NCBI GenBank assembly: GCA_903865435.1
Contig: CAIPJS010000092.1
Coordinates: 1 to 64,000 of the forward strand
Length of the DNA: 64,000 bases
From: an uncultured Bacteroidota bacterium
GTDB lineage: Bacteria > Bacteroidota > Bacteroidia > Chitinophagales > Chitinophagaceae
Reading direction: 5' to 3'
Shown here: positions 44,390-53,300 of the stretch, piece by piece
Numbering within the stretch: position 1 is the stretch's first letter
How the letters are laid out: each line of letters begins with the position of its first letter
Program-made: the position numbers and the translations under genes
The notes under the pieces: model-generated
Databases searched by the model: none
What the model saw: only the letters and a program-made list of their open reading frames with translations
What the model was told of the DNA's origin: nothing

Positions 44390-45841
44390 ATGAATTTTAA
44401 ACAATTATCAATCATATTAATAATTATTCTAAGCAGTATTCTGCTAAATGCTCAGCATATTGAGGTTAAAGATAAATTTCAAAAACATGAAATTGAATTT
44501 TTGGACATCATTTATAAAGACAGTACCCACTCCTTAAATTTAATATTACATAGCAACCTTTTTAATTTTGGACTCAATACCAAAGAATTTAAAAATATAG
44601 CCCTTTTAAAAAAAGGCAAAGCCATATGGATTCAGCCATTAGGAACGGGTAAATTATTTAAATTGGTTCAAACTAAGAACGAATACCATCTAATTAGAAT
44701 CGATTCCACTATTCATTCTGGGGTAAATTACGAAGCCTTTACTTTTCTTTTACATGATACCATCTTCCAATTTGGTGGTTCTGGCTTTTGGCATTTAAGA
44801 GGCATCATGACTTATTTTAGTAAAACTACCCAAGAATGGGAATTATACCCCAGCAACATTCTAGTAAATGGGTATGCTGATTATAAAGACATCATTAAAT
44901 ACAAAATAGATACTCAAGCCAATAAACTTTATGCGAATAAATCATTGGTCTATCGCAATTTGCCGAATGATTTTTCCTTAAATACTATTGACAGTTGTTT
45001 TGAATTTGATTTTAACAACCATAGATGGACCACACTTGGCGCAACCAATAATGAATTAAGAAAAAGCTTATTATCAGCCAATTTCTACCATTTTGATATG
45101 GGCGATATAATTATATTTCAAAATGCACTCGACTTTTTTTGGCTCAATTACAAAACGAATACTTATGGTAGAATAAAAAGATTTAAGAATGAACAGATGA
45201 AACAAACTTGGTTAAGTTTATACACCACCAAAGAAACATATGACGATGTTCAATTTAATCTAGGTAATACTGCCTATTTAATAAAATTAGATCCATCTAA
45301 ACAATTAAGCTTTAAAACTTTTAACATTAGTGTTGATGATATTGACACTAATAACTTCGATTATGTTTATAAAATAGAGAACTCCTTTGTGCACTTTATT
45401 TATAATGACTTATTGCCTTTTTTTACACCCAATGTTTCCATCACCATACTTATTTTATTTTTTATATTCTTCTTAATCTATCGTCAAAGAAAAAAAAGAG
45501 TGCCCCAGGAAGTGAATGCCATTTTGAATTTTCATTTTTTCAACTCGCTTAATGTTGTTGAAAAAGAATTGGTACAAGTATTGTATGAGCAACAATTAAA
45601 AGGGGAGGAAATTTCACCTAAACAAATCAATAAGATTATTGGCGTGCAGCAAAAAGACACTTTAACACAAAACAAAAGTAGAAGTGACCACTTTTTAAAA
45701 ATAAATCAGAAATTTAAACTAGCCACACAACAGGATTTGCCTCTTATTATTAAAAGCCGGGACAGCATTGATAAAAGACAATACAATTATGGCTTAGAAA
45801 CCAGGTACCTTCAAGAATTGGGCAAACATTTTAAAGCCTAG
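44390..45841 (+). CDS. Unrecognised single-span membrane protein, periplasmic beta-rich domain and cytosolic tail
   Basis: A 483-residue protein I do not recognise. A signal-like segment (about residues 3-20, ending LNAQ) is followed by a large exported region to about 345, beta-rich, with at least one Kelch-like stretch (DTIFQFGGSGFWHLRGIMTYF followed by TQEWELYP), and then one transmembrane helix (about 348-365; ITILILFFIFFLIY) and a basic 118-residue cytosolic tail. The tail has a lysine-rich helical character (SPKQINKIIGVQ, RSDHFLKINQKF). The layout resembles one-component signalling proteins, with outside sensor and inside effector, but no DNA-binding motif is certain. It stands alone between the AT-rich gap and a convergent LuxE-like gene (4-base overlap). 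Confidence 0.7.
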   Translation: MNFKQLSIILIIILSSILLNAQHIEVKDKFQKHEIEFLDIIYKDSTHSLNLILHSNLFNFGLNTKEFKNIALLKKGKAIWIQPLGTGKLFKLVQTKNEYHLIRIDSTIHSGVNYEAFTFLLHDTIFQFGGSGFWHLRGIMTYFSKTTQEWELYPSNILVNGYADYKDIIKYKIDTQANKLYANKSLVYRNLPNDFSLNTIDSCFEFDFNNHRWTTLGATNNELRKSLLSANFYHFDMGDIIIFQNALDFFWLNYKTNTYGRIKRFKNEQMKQTWLSLYTTKETYDDVQFNLGNTAYLIKLDPSKQLSFKTFNISVDDIDTNNFDYVYKIENSFVHFIYNDLLPFFTPNVSITILILFFIFFLIYRQRKKRVPQEVNAILNFHFFNSLNVVEKELVQVLYEQQLKGEEISPKQINKIIGVQQKDTLTQNKSRSDHFLKINQKFKLATQQDLPLIIKSRDSIDKRQYNYGLETRYLQELGKHFKA

Positions 45842-46812
45842 ACCACCAATAAGCTACAGCCTCTTCTTTCACTGGCATCAACTCGGCCTATTACTTTAAA
45901 ACTGCCATCAGCAAACACTTCACCTAAATCTTCTGTAGCAATAAAACTACAGCTATAGATATTCGCCAAGTCGATGACGTGCAATACGCCCCTACCTGTT
46001 TCTTTTAATGCCAATGGGTCTTCTTCATCTGCCACCAAAACTTTCATCCAAGCTGGGCATTTAAATAGCCCTTCTTTAATTGCATATGCTTGGCTGAGCA
46101 ATTCAGTCATGCCATATTCTGATTGAATATTTTCAGTTCCTAAATTTCTAGATAAAACATCTTGCAATTCCTCCCTGGTCAATTCTGTTTTCCTTCCTTT
46201 CATTCCACCCGTTTCTAAAACTATCGTATGTCGTAATTTTTGCGGGTAGGCTTGTGCAAAATCGGTCAGGGCAAAACTTACTCCAATTAACCAAACGGGT
46301 TGTTGCTTAACTTCAAGTTTTTTTAGAGTGGCGTCAAGTTTATTAAAATCATCTAAATAAAACCCACTATCTGGATGCTTGGATGTTTTAATTAAATGAT
46401 CCACCATATACACCAAGGAAGAATGTTTGCGCTCCAAATAAGATGGCAACAAACCAAGTATACAATAATTACTAGGATTGCCGTAAAATAAATTAAAACA
46501 ATTCAAAAAACTTTGCTCATATAAAAGGGTGTCTTGTACCCAATGTTTGCTTACCCTATCTTGTGTTGTCCCACTACTTTCAAATAAAGTACTGGGCTTA
46601 GGGCCAATAATAATTTCTTGGGTCTTGTAAAATGAGATGGGCAAAAATGGGATAGAAGTTAAATGTTGCGCATCCGCTTTATTTAAATTGACCCACTGTT
46701 GATACACTTCATTGTGTGCGGCTTGCCATTCAAATATCTTTTTACTTACCCTAAAGAAATCTTCCTTGGGTAAAGTCCATAAATCTTGGATAGCAATGGG
46801 TGGCTGGATCAC
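45838..46812 (-). CDS. LuxE-like acyl-protein synthetase family enzyme
   Basis: A 324-residue protein of the LuxE/acyl-protein synthetase family (PF04443), distantly related to adenylate-forming ligases. The motif FESSGTTQ at residues 77-84 is the phosphate-binding loop of this fold and SEYGMTELLSQAY (near residues 234-246) corresponds to the adenylate-binding YGxTE motif. In luminous bacteria LuxE activates fatty acids as acyl-AMP and holds them as a thioester; here no luxCD partners occur, so the substrate, likely a carboxylic acid, is unknown. Bacteroidota carry many such stand-alone genes. It is divergent from the M42-peptidase gene. Confidence 0.83.
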   Translation of the reverse strand: MIQPPIAIQDLWTLPKEDFFRVSKKIFEWQAAHNEVYQQWVNLNKADAQHLTSIPFLPISFYKTQEIIIGPKPSTLFESSGTTQDRVSKHWVQDTLLYEQSFLNCFNLFYGNPSNYCILGLLPSYLERKHSSLVYMVDHLIKTSKHPDSGFYLDDFNKLDATLKKLEVKQQPVWLIGVSFALTDFAQAYPQKLRHTIVLETGGMKGRKTELTREELQDVLSRNLGTENIQSEYGMTELLSQAYAIKEGLFKCPAWMKVLVADEEDPLALKETGRGVLHVIDLANIYSCSFIATEDLGEVFADGSFKVIGRVDASERRGCSLLVV

Positions 46813-46933: not shown

Positions 46934-48061
46934 ATGGCAAAATCTATCGTTAAAAAACCTGCTACCAAAGCAAAAAAAGAATTGATTGGTGCAAACGCTT
47001 ATCAATTTTTAACCAAATATATTAACAACCCTTCACCCGTTGGTTTCGAAATCAGTGGCCAAAAAATTTGGTTAGATTACCTTACAAAATATGTAGACAC
47101 TACTTTTACAGACCCTTATGGAACAGCTGTGGGGGTCATCAACCCATCTGCACCATTTAAAGTGGTGATTGAAGCACATGCCGATGAAATTAGTTGGTTT
47201 GTGAATTACATCAACGATCAAGGTTTAATTCATTTAAAAAGAAATGGTGGTGTAGACCATCAAATTGCGCCTTCGATGCGTGTTTGGATTCATGGAAAAA
47301 AAGGTCCTGTAAAAGCGGTGTTTGGATGGCCTGCCATTCATACCCGTTTAAGCAATCCAGAACAAAAGGAACCGCAACCTAAAGTTGATAACCTTACTTT
47401 GGATTGTGGTGCAAGATCAAAAAAAGAAGTAGAAGCATTAGGCATCCATGTAGGCGCTGTGGTAACTTATCAAGAAGGCATGGATGAATTGGCACATGAT
47501 TTCATCATTGGCCGTGCATTTGACAACAGAGTAGGTGGATTTATGATTGCAGAAGTTGCCCGTATGTTAAAAGAAAATAAAAAGAAATTGCCTTATGGCT
47601 TATACATTGTCAATGCAGTTCAAGAAGAGATTGGATTGCGTGGTGCTGAGATGATTGCTAGAAGAATCAAACCCAATATTGCCATCATTACCGATGTGAC
47701 GCATGATACACATACGCCCATGATTAATAAAGCCATTGAAGGAGATATTCAATGTGGTAAAGGCCCTTCGTTAGCTTATGCCCCTGCCATACACAATAAA
47801 TTATTGGCCATTGTAGAGGATACTGCAAAAGCAAAAAAAATTCCTGTACAATTTAGAACCTTAAGCAGAAGCACTGGCACCGATACAGATAGTTTTGCTT
47901 ATGCCAATGATGGTTGCCCTTCGGTTTTAATTTCCATTCCCTTAAGATATATGCATACCACGGTAGAAATGATTCACAAAAAAGACATTGTAGACACCAT
48001 TCAATTGATGTATGAAACTTTATTGGCACTTTCTCCAAAGACCAATTTAAGTTACCTATAA
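46934..48061 (+). CDS. M42 family metallo-aminopeptidase (glutamyl/deblocking aminopeptidase-like)
   Basis: A 375-residue cytosolic peptidase of the M42 family, tetrahedral (TET) dinuclear-metal aminopeptidases. Metal and catalytic regions seen: EAHADEISWF (His ligand near residue 83), GRAFDNRVGG (bridging Asp near 197), NAVQEEIGLRGAE (catalytic and metal Glu near 237-238), DVTHDTH and the terminal HTTVEMIHKKDI. The N-terminus has a lysine/alanine-rich extension of about 20 residues not typical of the family. The class I amidotransferase gene overlaps its stop by one base (TAATG), strongly suggesting translational coupling. A TATCTTGC element at 46902-46909 is a possible -7 box. Confidence 0.92.
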   Translation: MAKSIVKKPATKAKKELIGANAYQFLTKYINNPSPVGFEISGQKIWLDYLTKYVDTTFTDPYGTAVGVINPSAPFKVVIEAHADEISWFVNYINDQGLIHLKRNGGVDHQIAPSMRVWIHGKKGPVKAVFGWPAIHTRLSNPEQKEPQPKVDNLTLDCGARSKKEVEALGIHVGAVVTYQEGMDELAHDFIIGRAFDNRVGGFMIAEVARMLKENKKKLPYGLYIVNAVQEEIGLRGAEMIARRIKPNIAIITDVTHDTHTPMINKAIEGDIQCGKGPSLAYAPAIHNKLLAIVEDTAKAKKIPVQFRTLSRSTGTDTDSFAYANDGCPSVLISIPLRYMHTTVEMIHKKDIVDTIQLMYETLLALSPKTNLSYL

Positions 48062-48855
48062 TGCTAAAGCCCAAATTGACCATTGCCATCATAGATATGT
48101 ATGATGGAACTACCAATGTGGGCATGGAATGTATTGTGAACATCCTAAAAAAATGGAGCGCCAAAAGAGATTTAAATATTGATTATCGCATTTTTAAATT
48201 AAGGGAGTCCAACGAAATACCTGACAAAAGTTTTGATATTTATATTTCTTCGGGCGGTCCAGGCTCTCCTATTGATTCTGAAAATGCAACTTGGGATAAG
48301 TTATTTACACAATGGTTGGAACAAATGATGCACTTGAACAAACCTGTATTTTTAATTTGTCATAGTTTTCAATTGGCTTGTAGACATTTTAATTTAGGCA
48401 CCATTACTTTAAGAAAATCTAGACAAATTGGCGTATTACCCATACACCCTTTGTGTGCCGACTCAATTTTTAATGGATTGGATGAACCTTTTTATGCATT
48501 AGAGAGCAGATCCTATCAAATTACTGCCCCCAACGAAGAAGCCCTTTCTCATATAGGTGCTACGATAATTGCCCTTGAAAAAATAAGACCTCAGGTTCCA
48601 TTAGAAAGAGCCATTATGGGTATTCGATTTAATGAAAATATGATTGGCGTTCAATTTCACCCCGAGGGTGAGCCAGAAGCTTTACAAGTTTTTTTAAATG
48701 AGCCCGTTTTAAAAAGTAAAATCATTGAAGAATTTGGTATCGAAAAATGGGAGAAGACCATGACGCATTTGGATGATCCTTCAAAAATTCAAAAAACTTC
48801 AGAACATTTTATTCCAAATTTTTTAGACGCAGCCATTTCATTTCAACAGCATTAA
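48061..48855 (+). CDS. Class I glutamine amidotransferase-like protein
   Basis: A 264-residue protein with the class I glutaminase fold. The probable catalytic triad is C100 (in FLICHSFQLA; the usual GxCxGxQ is changed to ICHSFQ) and H200 with E202 (VQFHPEGEPE). The nearby SSGGPGSPID (63-72) is the conserved oxyanion-side glycine motif. The C-terminal 55 residues go beyond the domain. It is not GuaA, CarA, TrpG or PurQ by context. It starts on the last base of the M42-peptidase stop and is followed after 9 bases by the ATP-grasp-like gene. Together the latter two resemble a glutaminase-synthetase pair that makes an amide, but the product is unknown. Confidence 0.86.
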   Translation: MLKPKLTIAIIDMYDGTTNVGMECIVNILKKWSAKRDLNIDYRIFKLRESNEIPDKSFDIYISSGGPGSPIDSENATWDKLFTQWLEQMMHLNKPVFLICHSFQLACRHFNLGTITLRKSRQIGVLPIHPLCADSIFNGLDEPFYALESRSYQITAPNEEALSHIGATIIALEKIRPQVPLERAIMGIRFNENMIGVQFHPEGEPEALQVFLNEPVLKSKIIEEFGIEKWEKTMTHLDDPSKIQKTSEHFIPNFLDAAISFQQH

Positions 48856-48864
48856 GCATTTAAT

Positions 48865-50061
48865 ATGATTCCAAGTTTAAGACAAAAATTCAATGCTTCA
48901 TTTACCCAGGAAAAATACCAAGACTATCTTTCTATTATAGAAAAAAGCTTCCCCAATTCCTTAGACTTTAGAATTGCCGAAACGCCTATTTTTATAGATA
49001 CTGCATTTACAGTTACTATGCTTGAATTGGGCAATTATGTCAATCAACAAATTCTAGGTGCTGACTATAAAAAAAATACAGCGCCCTCCTTAGCAAATCA
49101 ACCCTTCAGTCCAAACGAAACAGCGTATCCTAACTGCATCGTTATGGATTTTGCAATTGCTTTAGATGAAAAAAATAATTTTGTTCCTAAATTAATTGAA
49201 CTCCAAGGATTCCCTTCTCTATTTGCTTTCGAAGTACTGCAAGAACAAGCTTTAGCCAATACGTATCATTTGCCAGATGATTTCAGTCCTTTTTTAAATG
49301 GCTATTCCCAAGCAAGCTATTTGGCACATTTGAAAAAAGTGATTTTGGGTACTAAAGGCGAACACACGGTATTGCTTGAATTGTTTCCGCATCAACAAAA
49401 AACCAGGATTGATTTTTATTGTACTGAAAAATATTTGGGCATCCCCATCGTGTGCATCACTGAATTAATACAAAAAGGAAGAGAACTATTTTACATTAGC
49501 AATGGATCCCCCATAAAAATAGAGCGTATATACAATAGAGTGGTGATGGATGAATTAAAAAAACAATCTAATGACATTCAAGAAAAAGGGAAAATATTAT
49601 TAAGCGATTTAGAGGTGAGTTGGGTTACCCACCCCAATCATTTTTATAGAATAAGTAAATTTTTACTCCCTTTTTTGAATCACCCGCATATTCCAAAAAC
49701 ACAATTTGTTCAAGAATTAAAATCAATACCTGAAAATTTAAAAGATTATATTTTAAAACCTCTTTTTTCTTTTGCAGGGCAAGGTGTTATTATTGACATC
49801 CAACCTGGCGATATAGAAACATTAAAAAAATCGAAGCAATGGATTTTACAAGAAAAAGTACAATATGCCGAATGCATTGAAACCCCTTCTGGCCCAGCCA
49901 AAGCCGAAATTAGACTGTTTTATTTTTGGGATGAAACCAAACAAGCCTATATCGCTACTTTAAACTTAGCAAGATTAAGCAAAGGGAAAATGATAGGTGT
50001 AGATTTTAATAAAAATAAGCAATGGGTGGGCGGCAGTTTGGCTTATTTTGAAAAACTTTAA
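48865..50061 (+). CDS. ATP-grasp-like protein of unknown specificity
   Basis: A 398-residue protein without clear annotation. The C-terminal segment YILKPLFSFAGQGVIID (about residues 294-310) followed by WILQEKVQY and AEIRLFYFW matches the order of ATP-grasp lysine, glycine loop and acidic metal-binding positions seen in glutathionylspermidine-synthetase-like, circularly permuted ATP-grasp ligases. The N-terminal half (MDFAIALDEKNNFVPKLIELQGFPSL) has the acidic and glutamate residues expected of the same group. Likely reaction: ATP-dependent formation of a C-N bond. It follows the amidotransferase by 9 bases. This function is inferred from motif order, not from a close homologue. Confidence 0.68.
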   Translation: MIPSLRQKFNASFTQEKYQDYLSIIEKSFPNSLDFRIAETPIFIDTAFTVTMLELGNYVNQQILGADYKKNTAPSLANQPFSPNETAYPNCIVMDFAIALDEKNNFVPKLIELQGFPSLFAFEVLQEQALANTYHLPDDFSPFLNGYSQASYLAHLKKVILGTKGEHTVLLELFPHQQKTRIDFYCTEKYLGIPIVCITELIQKGRELFYISNGSPIKIERIYNRVVMDELKKQSNDIQEKGKILLSDLEVSWVTHPNHFYRISKFLLPFLNHPHIPKTQFVQELKSIPENLKDYILKPLFSFAGQGVIIDIQPGDIETLKKSKQWILQEKVQYAECIETPSGPAKAEIRLFYFWDETKQAYIATLNLARLSKGKMIGVDFNKNKQWVGGSLAYFEKL

Positions 50062-51746: not shown

Positions 51747-52193
51747 TTAAAATTTTAAATAATAAAACCCAGCTGTTGGCAGTATCTCTTTATTGACTAT
51801 TGTAACTTTTTGAGGTTGCGCTATATCTTTTACGTTCGATAATTTCCATTTAAATTGATAACCCGATAAAACAACTACTTCTTCATCGATTGCTTTACGC
51901 TTAGGAAAATTTGCTGTCATTTGCATGGTTTCAATAGCAAATCCAGCATCATATACAGCTTCTCTAATTTGCTCTATTTTAACTTGCTCAGGTGATTTAA
52001 AGGTTAAAATATAACTTGACTTTTCAATATCTACTTTCACATCTGCTACGAAATCTAATTGAGACAATGACTTGAAAATGGCTTTGGAACACATTGAACA
52101 AGTAAGCCCACTGGCCACCAGTTCAACCGACTGCACCTGCGCAGTGGCACTTAAACTTAAAAAGAAAAAAATAAGTATTGCAAAATATTTCAT
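51747..52193 (-). CDS. Exported heavy-metal-associated (HMA) domain protein
   Basis: A 148-residue protein with a signal peptide (about residues 1-19, ending SATAQ) and one HMA domain carrying the metal-binding CxxC (SGLTCSMCSKAI; C32, C35). The domain continues to about residue 92 and a further 55 residues are of unknown fold. Exported HMA proteins bind Cu+ or other soft metals in the periplasm. ATG 52193 is preferred to an upstream ATG at 52235 because it starts the signal peptide directly. The HMA-metallothionein gene lies upstream on the same strand with a gap of about 150 bases. Confidence 0.85.
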   Translation of the reverse strand: MKYFAILIFFFLSLSATAQVQSVELVASGLTCSMCSKAIFKSLSQLDFVADVKVDIEKSSYILTFKSPEQVKIEQIREAVYDAGFAIETMQMTANFPKRKAIDEEVVVLSGYQFKWKLSNVKDIAQPQKVTIVNKEILPTAGFYYLKF

Positions 52194-52343
52194 TGAATAT
52201 GGTTTAAATTTATTTTTTGAAAGCTCCATCCCCATTTAGTGAGCGGAAATAGGACAATCAAATAAAGGAAAAATTAAATCATCACCAGCTATTTCATTCA
52301 AACGTAAATAAAATAACCAATGATGATTTTATAATCTTAGCAA

Positions 52344-52826
52344 TTATTTACAACAAGCCCCATCTTTACAACATTTGGCATCTTTTTTACAACAAGCCAT
52401 TTCTTTGTTGTCGCTAGACATTCCTTTTTTGCAGGCTACTCCATCTGCGCAGCAAATTGCGCCTGGCTTACAACAGCTGGCATTCTCAGCAACAGCAGTT
52501 TTACTCGTTCTATCGTATTGACAACACTGATCCAATTTATTATAAGCAATAGTACTGGCCACTTTATGCTCTGTATCATAACCAGCTGCTGCTACCGCAT
52601 CTTCAATTTTATCAGTTGAAGTTTTATTGGCATCGAATGTTACTTTTAAAACTTTAGCCACTTTATCCCAATCCGCACTTGCCGCACCCGCATTTTTAGC
52701 CGCTTTCTCAATATGTCCTTTACACATCGCACAATTGCCTGCCACTTTTATTTGACTTGTATTTTGTGCTTGTAATAAAAAAGTAGAGATGAACATGCAT
52801 CCCACTAATAATATAAAATTTTTCAT
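52344..52826 (-). CDS. HMA domain protein with metallothionein-like Cys-rich tail
   Basis: A 160-residue exported protein. After a signal peptide (about residues 1-20, ending LLQAQ) there is an HMA domain with CxxC (AGNCAMCKGH; C32 and C35, the same positions as in the neighbouring HMA protein), to about residue 92. Residues 101-160 hold 13 cysteines, including six adjacent pairs (101/102, 118/119, 125/126, 145/146, 152/153, 158/159), with lysine between them, like a metallothionein. The tail probably stores several metal ions delivered by the HMA domain. The start ATG at 52826 is chosen since the upstream in-frame ATG at 52865 adds a non-signal extension. Confidence 0.86.
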   Translation of the reverse strand: MKNFILLVGCMFISTFLLQAQNTSQIKVAGNCAMCKGHIEKAAKNAGAASADWDKVAKVLKVTFDANKTSTDKIEDAVAAAGYDTEHKVASTIAYNKLDQCCQYDRTSKTAVAENASCCKPGAICCADGVACKKGMSSDNKEMACCKKDAKCCKDGACCK

Positions 52827-52871
52827 TATGTAATTTTTAATAATTTTTGAATCATATCCCTCCATAGCAAT

Positions 52872-52888
52872 GTCTAATCATTTTAGAC
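52872..52888. promoter_or_regulatory. Dyad upstream of the HMA-metallothionein gene
   Basis: GTCTAA (52872-52877) and TTAGAC (52883-52888) form a 6-bp dyad with spacer TCATT; flanking AATG and CATT extend the symmetry imperfectly. It is 46 bases upstream of the start codon and may be a repressor or activator site. No -7 box is clear nearby. Confidence 0.3.
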
Positions 52889-52943
52889 GCATTACTATTT
52901 AGCACAATAAGCCATATAGCTTTTGCACTTAGATGCTAATAAA

Positions 52944-53300
52944 TCAAATTAAATAAACGCAGATGAATTCGTAGATGGGATGCCCTGTGTCAATTATAGA
53001 CTTTTTTAAAACAAGCGTCTTTCTGTTCAATACCAATTCAGTAATTGAATTATTTATATAAGTAGTCTTTTCAATACTAAGATTTATTTTCTTAGTAATT
53101 GTGTTATTACTTACTTGAAACTGATGATTGTCTTGAGACTTTAAATAAGTGGTCTTTGTGGTACAACAAAGATCTTTTTTGGCAGGCTTACCGCATTTGC
53201 ATGTTTTTACCTTACCTGCACAAGCATGTGAAGTTACTGTTGCTCCAATGCTAGAAACGGTATATAATAAAAATAAAAATATAGTAAGCACCTTTTTCAT
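52944..53300 (-). CDS. HYC_CC_PP-like short exported cysteine-rich protein
   Basis: A 118-residue exported protein (signal about residues 1-20, ending SIGA) with H25-A-C27, then C34, C36 and the pair C45-C46. This arrangement resembles the short Bacteroidota family named for its HYC and CC motifs and typically found near copper-responsive receptors; here the first motif reads HAC instead of HYC and the PP motif is not obvious. Metal binding at the cysteines is likely but unproved. It lies 117 bases upstream of the HMA-metallothionein gene, same strand. Confidence 0.7.
   Translation of the reverse strand: MKKVLTIFLFLLYTVSSIGATVTSHACAGKVKTCKCGKPAKKDLCCTTKTTYLKSQDNHQFQVSNNTITKKINLSIEKTTYINNSITELVLNRKTLVLKKSIIDTGHPIYEFICVYLI

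Follow-up and report, generated by a model that had tools for sequence, protein, structure and literature searches.

An uncharacterised ligase-hydrolase gene set of Bacteroidota assembled from known folds

The three genes at the locus

A 64,000-nucleotide stretch of DNA (contig CAIPJS010000092.1; the whole stretch is called the window below), placed in the Bacteroidota by inference from named relatives, carries three closely packed genes on its forward strand. They encode an M42 metallo-aminopeptidase (M42), a cysteine hydrolase with the fold of class I glutamine amidotransferases (GATases) that we call GAT, and a predicted circularly permuted ATP-grasp ligase that we call GRASP. From a comparison with 60 relatives and 296 genomes of the phylum we conclude that the GAT-GRASP pair is real and widely kept, and that the steadiest partners of GRASP are two other ligases, GCS2 and AG2, together with esterases, all of which were missed by an earlier, sequence-only reading of the window. 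The genes and their principal motifs are as follows.

46934..48061, forward strand: gene for the M42 metallo-aminopeptidase (375 amino acids); PF05343 251.9 bits, cut-off 23.2
48061..48855, forward strand: gene for GAT, the class I GATase-fold cysteine hydrolase (264 amino acids); PF00117 47.7 bits, cut-off 22.8
48358..48360, forward strand: codon of the GAT nucleophile Cys100, inside ICHSFQ; C100 present in 79 of 79 aligned GATs
48658..48666, forward strand: codons of GAT His200-Pro-Glu202, the remainder of the triad; H200 and E202 present in 79 of 79 aligned GATs
48865..50061, forward strand: gene for GRASP, by predicted model (pLDDT 90.7) a circularly permuted ATP-grasp ligase of glutathione synthetase/glutathionylspermidine (Gsp) synthetase fold (398 amino acids)
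49147..49206, forward strand: putative metal/ATP motif of GRASP, D95...E112-L-Q114 (canonical form R-x-D...E-x-N), from a 140-row alignment and an alignment with YgiC, Gss and X (a second permuted ATP-grasp, described below)
49756..49788, forward strand: putative ATP-binding loop of GRASP, K298-P-L-F-S-F-A-G-Q-G-V308, aligned with YgiC KPIFSREGANV

The last A of the TAA stop codon of the M42 gene (48061) doubles as the first base of the GAT ATG, giving a one-base overlap, and 9 bases separate GAT from GRASP. The positions, overlap and gap of the sequence-only reading were all borne out by the open reading frame (ORF) calls and the sequence, and the PF05343 score confirmed its naming of the first gene as an M42 aminopeptidase.

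Around GRASP we read 140 loci. Of these, 80 are near ones from named records (Sediminibacterium, Segetibacter, Longitalea and further records of Chitinophagaceae type); the 60 distant ones come from 60 of the 92 phylum genomes with GRASP, among them one genome that belongs to the window's family (G311) and another that belongs to its order (G122). ORFs at these loci were called with a simple script and labels were spread by clustering, the labels M29 (PF02073) and PF07969 being Pfam-tested in one member each. For the co-occurrence lists the E-value limits were 1e-3 for GRASP, 1e-20 for GAT, 1e-40 for GCS2 and 1e-20 for AG2; one of the 92 GRASP genomes (G105) was counted from a 26-residue fragment.

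Folds and active-site motifs of GRASP and GAT

No Pfam or NCBIfam model matched GRASP above its cut-off. Two Pfam matches, ATPgrasp_ST and GSP_synth, reached 12 bits each, and for GSP_synth (PF03738, the YgiC/Gss family) the score of 12.0 bits lies below the 29.3 bits needed for membership; GRASP is a ligase sequence family absent from the libraries searched. An AlphaFold2 model made from 45 sequences had a predicted local distance difference score (pLDDT) of 90.7 and a predicted template modelling score (pTM) of 0.90. When this model was aligned with solved structures by VIA-align, with matches spanning residues 1-397, it resembled YjfC (Z 25.9, root-mean-square deviation (rmsd) 3.5, 343 residues), YgiC (Z 25.4, rmsd 3.5, 343 residues), Gsp synthetase 2io7 (Z 24.5, rmsd 3.7, 343 residues), homoglutathione synthetase 3kal (Z 24.3, rmsd 3.5, 365 residues), human glutathione synthetase 2hgs (Z 23.7, rmsd 3.7, 367 residues), Cp1B 9cjn (Z 22.9, rmsd 3.5, 358 residues) and trypanothione synthetase (Z 22.2). 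The next match was a putative gamma-glutamylcysteine synthetase, 3k1t (Z 12.8, 262 residues), and LysX, RimK and other ordinary ATP-grasp ligases aligned below it at about Z 8, from residue 165 on. All 23 chains that Foldseek returned at E <=0.001 were of glutathione or Gsp synthetase type, with E values between 1e-13 and 5e-7, and a profile of 21 GRASPs reached YgiC among PDB sequences at E 0.039. The order of the motifs is permuted, with D95...E112-x-Q114 lying N-terminal to K298-P, as befits the fold class. By its predicted fold GRASP is a circularly permuted ATP-grasp ligase; the whole-chain match upheld this claim of the sequence-only reading, and the comparison with Gsp synthetase that it had proposed proved to be the right lead.

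Within this fold GRASP is, judging from model and motifs, a divergent relative and not a typical member. In the residue alignment (140 rows, 3 odd-length ORFs of the GRASP cluster being excluded, and 2 rows, probably transporters, departing at nearly every motif) D95, E112, Q114 and K298 were each present in 138 of 140 rows, G305 and G307 in all 140, and the group D95, E112, K298, G305, G307, R350 and R370 in 138-140. Gss carries RMD and both YgiC and X carry RLD, all three with E-x-N, whereas GRASP has x-x-D with E-x-Q. The catalytic quartet R-x-D...E-x-N is therefore incomplete in GRASP, which keeps the Asp and the Glu and has the Arg replaced (in 135 of 140 rows by Ala, Val, Gln, Ile or Thr at position 93) and the Asn changed to Gln. 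According to PMC12568646, Ala mutants of R139, D141, E163 and N165 of Cp1B lost all or much of their activity; from the motifs we infer that these four residues are probably equivalent to the GRASP motif positions.

The nearest known enzymes differ from GRASP in several respects. E. coli YgiC and YjfC, of which the K-12 record names YgiC a peptide-spermidine ligase, share with it the whole-chain fold, the colinear KP loop and the D...E motif, but are 14-15% identical to it, and GRASP lacks the quartet Arg and Asn, falls below the PF03738 cut-off and stands among GCS2 and AG2. Gss and trypanothione synthetase-amidase likewise tie a ligase of this fold to a cysteine hydrolase; in Gss the amidase is fused to the synthetase, according to the K-12 record, whereas here a gene of its own encodes the hydrolase, which has a GATase fold and gives way elsewhere to an M29-type peptidase. 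Glutathione and homoglutathione synthetases of eukaryotic type share the fold and a gamma-glutamyl ligase as partner (here GCS2); GRASP is shorter, about 12% identical to them and accompanied by the extra ligase AG2. Cp1B, from E-64 biosynthesis, shares the fold and forms an amide independently of nonribosomal peptide synthetases, as a stand-alone ligase with another amide-forming enzyme next to it, but it is fungal, keeps R139, D141, E163 and N165, and its second enzyme is of the ANL family (PMC12568646).

GAT scored above the PF00117 cut-off and carries the Cys-His-Glu triad of class I GATases, with C100, H200 and E202 intact in all 79 aligned GATs. The nucleophile elbow of class I GATases is as a rule G-x-C-x-G. 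In GAT it reads I99-C100-H101-S102, with Ser in place of Gly, and this holds family-wide (S102 in 79 of 79, H101 in 77 of 79); the altered ICHSFQ loop pointed out in the sequence-only reading is real, since C100, S102 and Q104 are invariant among the 79. The GAT model (pLDDT 92.3, pTM 0.91) aligned with the GATase TM1158 (Z 24.1, rmsd 2.6, 227 residues), with gamma-glutamyl peptidase 1 of Arabidopsis (Z 23.0, rmsd 2.9, 229 residues) and with MetA (Z 22.6, rmsd 3.1, 240 residues), and many glutaminases matched as well. With gamma-glutamyl peptidase 1 and TM1158-type GATases the likeness is one of fold only, extending over 227-233 of 264 residues (Z 22-24) at 11-15% identity, and GAT differs from them in its ICHS elbow. 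On this modelled fold we propose GAT as a candidate gamma-glutamyl peptidase or amidase partner of the ligase.

Partners of the pair across the phylum

GRASP was found in 39 of the 60 relatives and in 92 of the 296 phylum genomes; in the latter set GAT was carried by 70 genomes, GCS2 by 102 and AG2 by 106. GCS2 is a YbdK-type carboxylate-amine ligase, the copy in the window's genome scoring 292.1 bits against the 176.4 of TIGR02050 and 509.8 against the 371 of PRK13515. Its N-terminal ...TIGVEEEY... contains the GhExE signature that PMC2588565 describes for ligases of this type. AG2 is an ATP-grasp whose similarity to the RimK family is weak (TIGR00768 at E 4.9e-6 with 26.1 bits, where the cut-off is 143.4). 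Of the 92 GRASP genomes 86 had GCS2 and 87 had AG2, whereas among the 204 genomes without GRASP GCS2 occurred in 16 and AG2 in 19. The link between the three ligases is strong, not absolute; the 296 genomes are related to one another, so that Fisher values for co-occurrence overstate independence. All four genes were present in 49 genomes and GRASP, GCS2 and AG2 without GAT in 33, GAT being absent from 37 of the 92 GRASP genomes altogether. Two genomes (G086 and G101) have all three ligase genes with the other two far from GRASP. Relatives of AG2 (34-41% identity) also occurred in four genomes (G066, G145, G218, G345) without GRASP, GAT or GCS2 at the limits used, where AG2 possibly has a distinct role.

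The ORF directly upstream of GRASP was GAT in 63 of the 78 near loci having an upstream ORF (once on the opposite strand) and in 13 of 59 distant ones, and in 41 of the 55 phylum genomes with both genes the two lay within about 1.2 kb of each other, by distances counted by hand from their positions. Within six ORFs of GRASP we found GAT at 64 of 80 near and 14 of 60 distant loci, GCS2 at 8 and 27, AG2 at 7 and 26, the esterase EST12 at 0 and 17, and the esterase EST16 at 7 and 5. Same-strand runs at the 60 distant loci, read over the six ORFs upstream of GRASP and skipping unlabelled ORFs, were EST12-AG2-GCS2-GRASP (8 loci), EST12-AG2-GCS2-GAT-GRASP (7), AG2-GCS2-M29-GRASP (3), AG2-GCS2-GAT-GRASP (3), AG2-GCS2-GRASP (3) and GAT-GRASP (2), with five further arrangements seen once each.

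The window's own genome (G000) holds GCS2 on another contig (G000:C23:5467-6552) among unlabelled neighbours, and AG2 was not found in this assembly, which is given as 100% complete. Five genomes of the window's genus (L204-L208) carry AG2 and GCS2 together beside EST16, and in four of the five, where M42, GAT and GRASP share one contig or stretch, the AG2-GCS2-EST16 group is found elsewhere. In our reading the window cassette belongs to a set that this lineage has broken up and in part lost.

Parts of the set are exchanged slot by slot. At five loci (L130, L134, L139, L152, L155) an M29-type aminopeptidase (PF02073, 63.5 bits in L134) occupies the usual position of GAT between GCS2 and GRASP, and no GAT was found at E 1e-20 in the genomes of these loci. 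An amidohydrolase cluster (PF07969 tested in one member) lies directly upstream of GRASP at 11 of 59 distant loci. Conversely, in 11 of 11 genomes examined, out of 15 with GAT and without GRASP, there was a run with AG2 and the protein X; X adjoins GAT in ten of these, and in G348 GAT is on another contig. X is a permuted ATP-grasp: two of the three tested pass the PF14403 cut-off, and the putative Gsp synthase of PDB 3n6x matches at E 1.8e-8. At E 1e-10 it was absent from all 140 GRASP loci, and it was not seen in three of the four AG2-only genomes named above (loci L234-L236), which were searched for it. Comparison of the GRASP and X profiles by hhalign was weak (probability 1.4%, E 0.037), so that what links the two is a common fold family and gene slot and not their sequences. 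Thus an M29 aminopeptidase takes the place of GAT, and X, the more canonical permuted ATP-grasp, that of GRASP. This arrangement, a ligase whose neighbouring amide hydrolase varies, is reminiscent of the E. coli enzyme in which amidase and synthetase are fused.

The M42 gene behaved otherwise. The sequence-only reading had taken the three genes as one unit, but M42 lay within six ORFs of GRASP at 29 of the 80 near loci and at none of the 60 distant ones; of its gene-order proposal the GAT-GRASP part stood and the M42 part held in one lineage. M42 relatives at E 1e-20 were present in 34 of the 39 relatives with GRASP and in 16 of the 21 without it (13 of these 16 being 55-65% identical and the others about 32-35%), and none was found at that limit in three GRASP genomes that are 99-100% complete (G038, G047, G058). 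As a member of the conserved set M42 was rejected on this distribution, since it does not track GRASP. Within the window's genus full-length M42 is 81-97% and GRASP 48-78% identical, and the one-base overlap of M42 stop and GAT start recurs in 10 of 27 adjacent cases, the gap being 2 to 149 bases in the other 17. In G010 (L246) M42 and GAT adjoin (G010:C1:2050457-2052417), about 1.6 Mb from GRASP, and in G184, another genome with GRASP elsewhere, M42 is two ORFs from GAT; among the few ORFs around GAT in the other 12 loci where GAT lies off GRASP no M42 was seen. Since M42 is kept beside GAT in the one genome and near it in the other, we no longer call it a mere bystander, our estimates of likelihood being unchanged. 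In one lineage M42 shares an operon, chiefly with GAT, but it lies outside the wider set; in the window it is probably co-transcribed with GAT and GRASP, and a role in that one lineage is possible. The adjacency in G010 is also a hint that in that lineage the peptidase goes with the GATase-fold hydrolase and not with the ligase.

Several other neighbours were recorded. A LuxE-like protein (window 45838-46812, reverse strand; LuxE 24.0 bits against a cut-off of 24.9) is transcribed divergently from M42, and a gene of this type lies within six ORFs of GRASP at 28 of 80 near loci. On the other side the cassette is flanked by a run of small cysteine-rich proteins resembling heavy-metal domains (labelled by eye; window 51747-53300, reverse strand), relatives of one of which occur near GRASP at 13 of 80 near loci. 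A small cupin (PF07883, L104:7184-7498) follows GRASP by 15 bases, and cupins lie within six ORFs of GRASP at 16 of 140 loci. In G183 (L137:7637-10237) GRASP is fused behind a sodium:solute symporter (PF00474) in a single 867-residue frame, and in G191 (L154) a symporter-like gene, labelled by eye, is directly upstream of it; such a symporter may carry the substrate or product. In the window the sole Rfam family above its gathering score was the Bacteroidales-type small signal recognition particle RNA RF04183 (23849-23955, reverse strand, 86.5 bits), and no tRNA was found. Promoter-like sites numbered 18 against 14.9 expected and terminator-like sites 3 against 3.0, from which we make no claim; the TTTG/TAnnTTTG pattern was at chance level (9 against 8.2 expected).

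A possible pathway and its rivals

We propose, tentatively and at a little under an even chance, that GAT-GRASP is the window's remnant of a multi-gene pathway that both makes and recycles a small compound resembling glutathione, a gamma-glutamyl-type peptide or peptide-amine. In such a pathway GCS2 would activate a glutamate-like carboxylate as an acyl phosphate and join it to an amino compound through a gamma-glutamyl-type bond, and AG2, where present, would add a further residue. GRASP would then phosphorylate a carboxylate of that product and couple it to an amino acid or amine, in the manner of glutathione synthetase, Gsp synthetase and YgiC/YjfC, and GAT or its stand-ins would reopen a gamma-glutamyl or amide bond. 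The GAT-GRASP pair would be a split counterpart of the fused Gsp amidase/synthetase, and M42 a neighbour that joined in one lineage. The proposal builds on the folds, the intact GAT triad, the co-occurrence and the gene order that we observed; its substrates, its direction and the hydrolase role of GAT are conjecture. The chemistry suggested here for GCS2, AG2, GRASP and GAT is argued by analogy with that established, in PMC2588565, PMC12568646 and the K-12 record, for YbdK, Gss, YgiC/YjfC and the glutathione synthetases. More doubtful, in our judgement, is the fuller picture of an undescribed peptide or peptide-amine metabolite made by up to three stacked ligases with interchangeable hydrolases in about a third of the sampled genomes, with GRASP forming its bond with a changed quartet. 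As for an amine substrate, at which a polyamine supply would hint, nspC was above its cut-off in only 5 of 60 relatives and not in G000 (47 against 409 bits), which tells nothing about the amine. The sequence-only suggestion of a peptide or amino-acid conjugate as product stays plausible.

A number of observations weigh against this pathway. Substrates are not derivable from fold and gene context. GRASP, lacking the Arg and Asn of the quartet, could be altered in its chemistry or inactive. The solved structure best matched by the GAT profile is homoserine O-succinyltransferase MetA (E 3.5e-4), and fold and profile, as modelled, do not choose between a glutaminase, a gamma-glutamyl peptidase and an acyltransferase. 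Of the 55 genomes that carry both GAT and GRASP, 14 have them in separate places, and GAT away from GRASP (14 loci, from 13 of these genomes and G010) mostly stands among unlabelled genes with no core neighbour. Of the 60 distant GRASPs 29 have no core gene on the same strand within six upstream ORFs, and GCS2 and AG2 can each be absent, AG2 not being found in G000 and GCS2 missing from four f18 genomes. Finally, the bacillithiol gene BshC is present in 290 of 296 genomes, leaving no missing thiol to fill.

The adjacency of GAT and GRASP, the PF00117 membership with its intact triad, the GATase as top single fold match, and the finding that in the window's genus GAT and GRASP are mostly together though AG2 and GCS2 are elsewhere, would all suit a true glutaminase that feeds ammonia to GRASP, the pair forming a carboxamide with a CarA/CarB-like division of labour. 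This is close to the amide-forming pair of the sequence-only reading, and we regard it as unlikely; it is weakened by the 37 of 92 GRASP genomes that have no GAT, by the separation of the pair in 14 of 55 genomes and in G010, by the predicted fold of GRASP, which is that of amino-acid and amine ligases, by the M29-type aminopeptidase that fills the GAT slot at five loci of GAT-less genomes, and by the replacement of the G-x-C-x-G elbow by I-C-H-S. Less likely again is a glutathione-type thiol pathway, in which GCS2 would act as gamma-glutamyl-cysteine ligase, GRASP as a eukaryote-like glutathione synthetase, and GAT would degrade the thiol, as gamma-glutamyl peptidase does in plants. It agrees with the passing of the YbdK family model by GCS2, with the glutathione synthetase fold of GRASP, with the match of GAT to gamma-glutamyl peptidase 1 and with thioredoxin-like ORFs (TlpA-type, labelled by eye) near GRASP at 19 of 140 loci. 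It agrees also with the gamma-glutamyl:cysteine ligase activity of YbdK, known from the title of a reference in PMC2588565. However, BshC occurs with or without the system, and AG2 accompanies the other two as a third ligase. The idea that the set was driven by a loss of glutathione-like thiols was rejected, since BshC is nearly universal and shows no complementary pattern.

The change of the quartet Arg and Asn in nearly all aligned rows would also be expected if GRASP had lost its ligase chemistry and become a binding or regulatory protein for the product of GCS2 or AG2. This we think improbable: the seven residues listed above are kept in 138-140 of 140 rows, and a more canonical ligase, X, replaces GRASP in genomes without it. 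Least likely of all is a system for a compatible solute or storage dipeptide resembling the N-acetylglutaminylglutamine amide (NAGGN) trio, TIGR03103/03104/03106, with M42 as the degrading peptidase. The trio has the same composition in outline, an amidotransferase, an ATP-grasp and an M42 peptidase; the M42 gene of the window matches TIGR03106 weakly, two unrelated metallo-peptidase families (M42 and M29) stand beside the ligase in different lineages, and in G010 and G184, both with GRASP elsewhere, M42 keeps to GAT, as its direct neighbour in the former and close by in the latter. But the TIGR03106 score (41.9 bits) is below the cut-off of 397.75, no NAGGN ligase or amidotransferase model was among the matches of GAT and GRASP up to E 1, the ligase is a different one, the NAGGN amidotransferase belongs to a different amidotransferase class, and M42 is not conserved with GRASP. 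A mobile or viral origin was rejected as well, GRASP relatives being confirmed in none of 30 pattern matches in viral contigs and in no plasmids; no AG2 relatives were found in plasmids, and a PADLOC search with six proteins of the set gave no match up to E 0.01.

We found no publication describing this gene set by title or abstract, nor one assigning it a product. A 2009 amidoligase survey by Iyer and co-workers may list part of the neighbourhood, and we therefore do not claim that the set is unpublished. It is an uncharacterised ligase-hydrolase assembly made from known folds and carried by many Bacteroidota, a large phylum that would thereby gain a small-molecule pathway. The three co-occurring amide ligases, one of the GCS2 family and two ATP-grasps of different build, together with the slot exchange, point the search towards a peptide of gamma-glutamyl type or an amine conjugate and leave few proteins to assay. 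GRASP itself would represent a ligase family that works, or fails to work, in the absence of two residues on which an enzyme of related fold depends.

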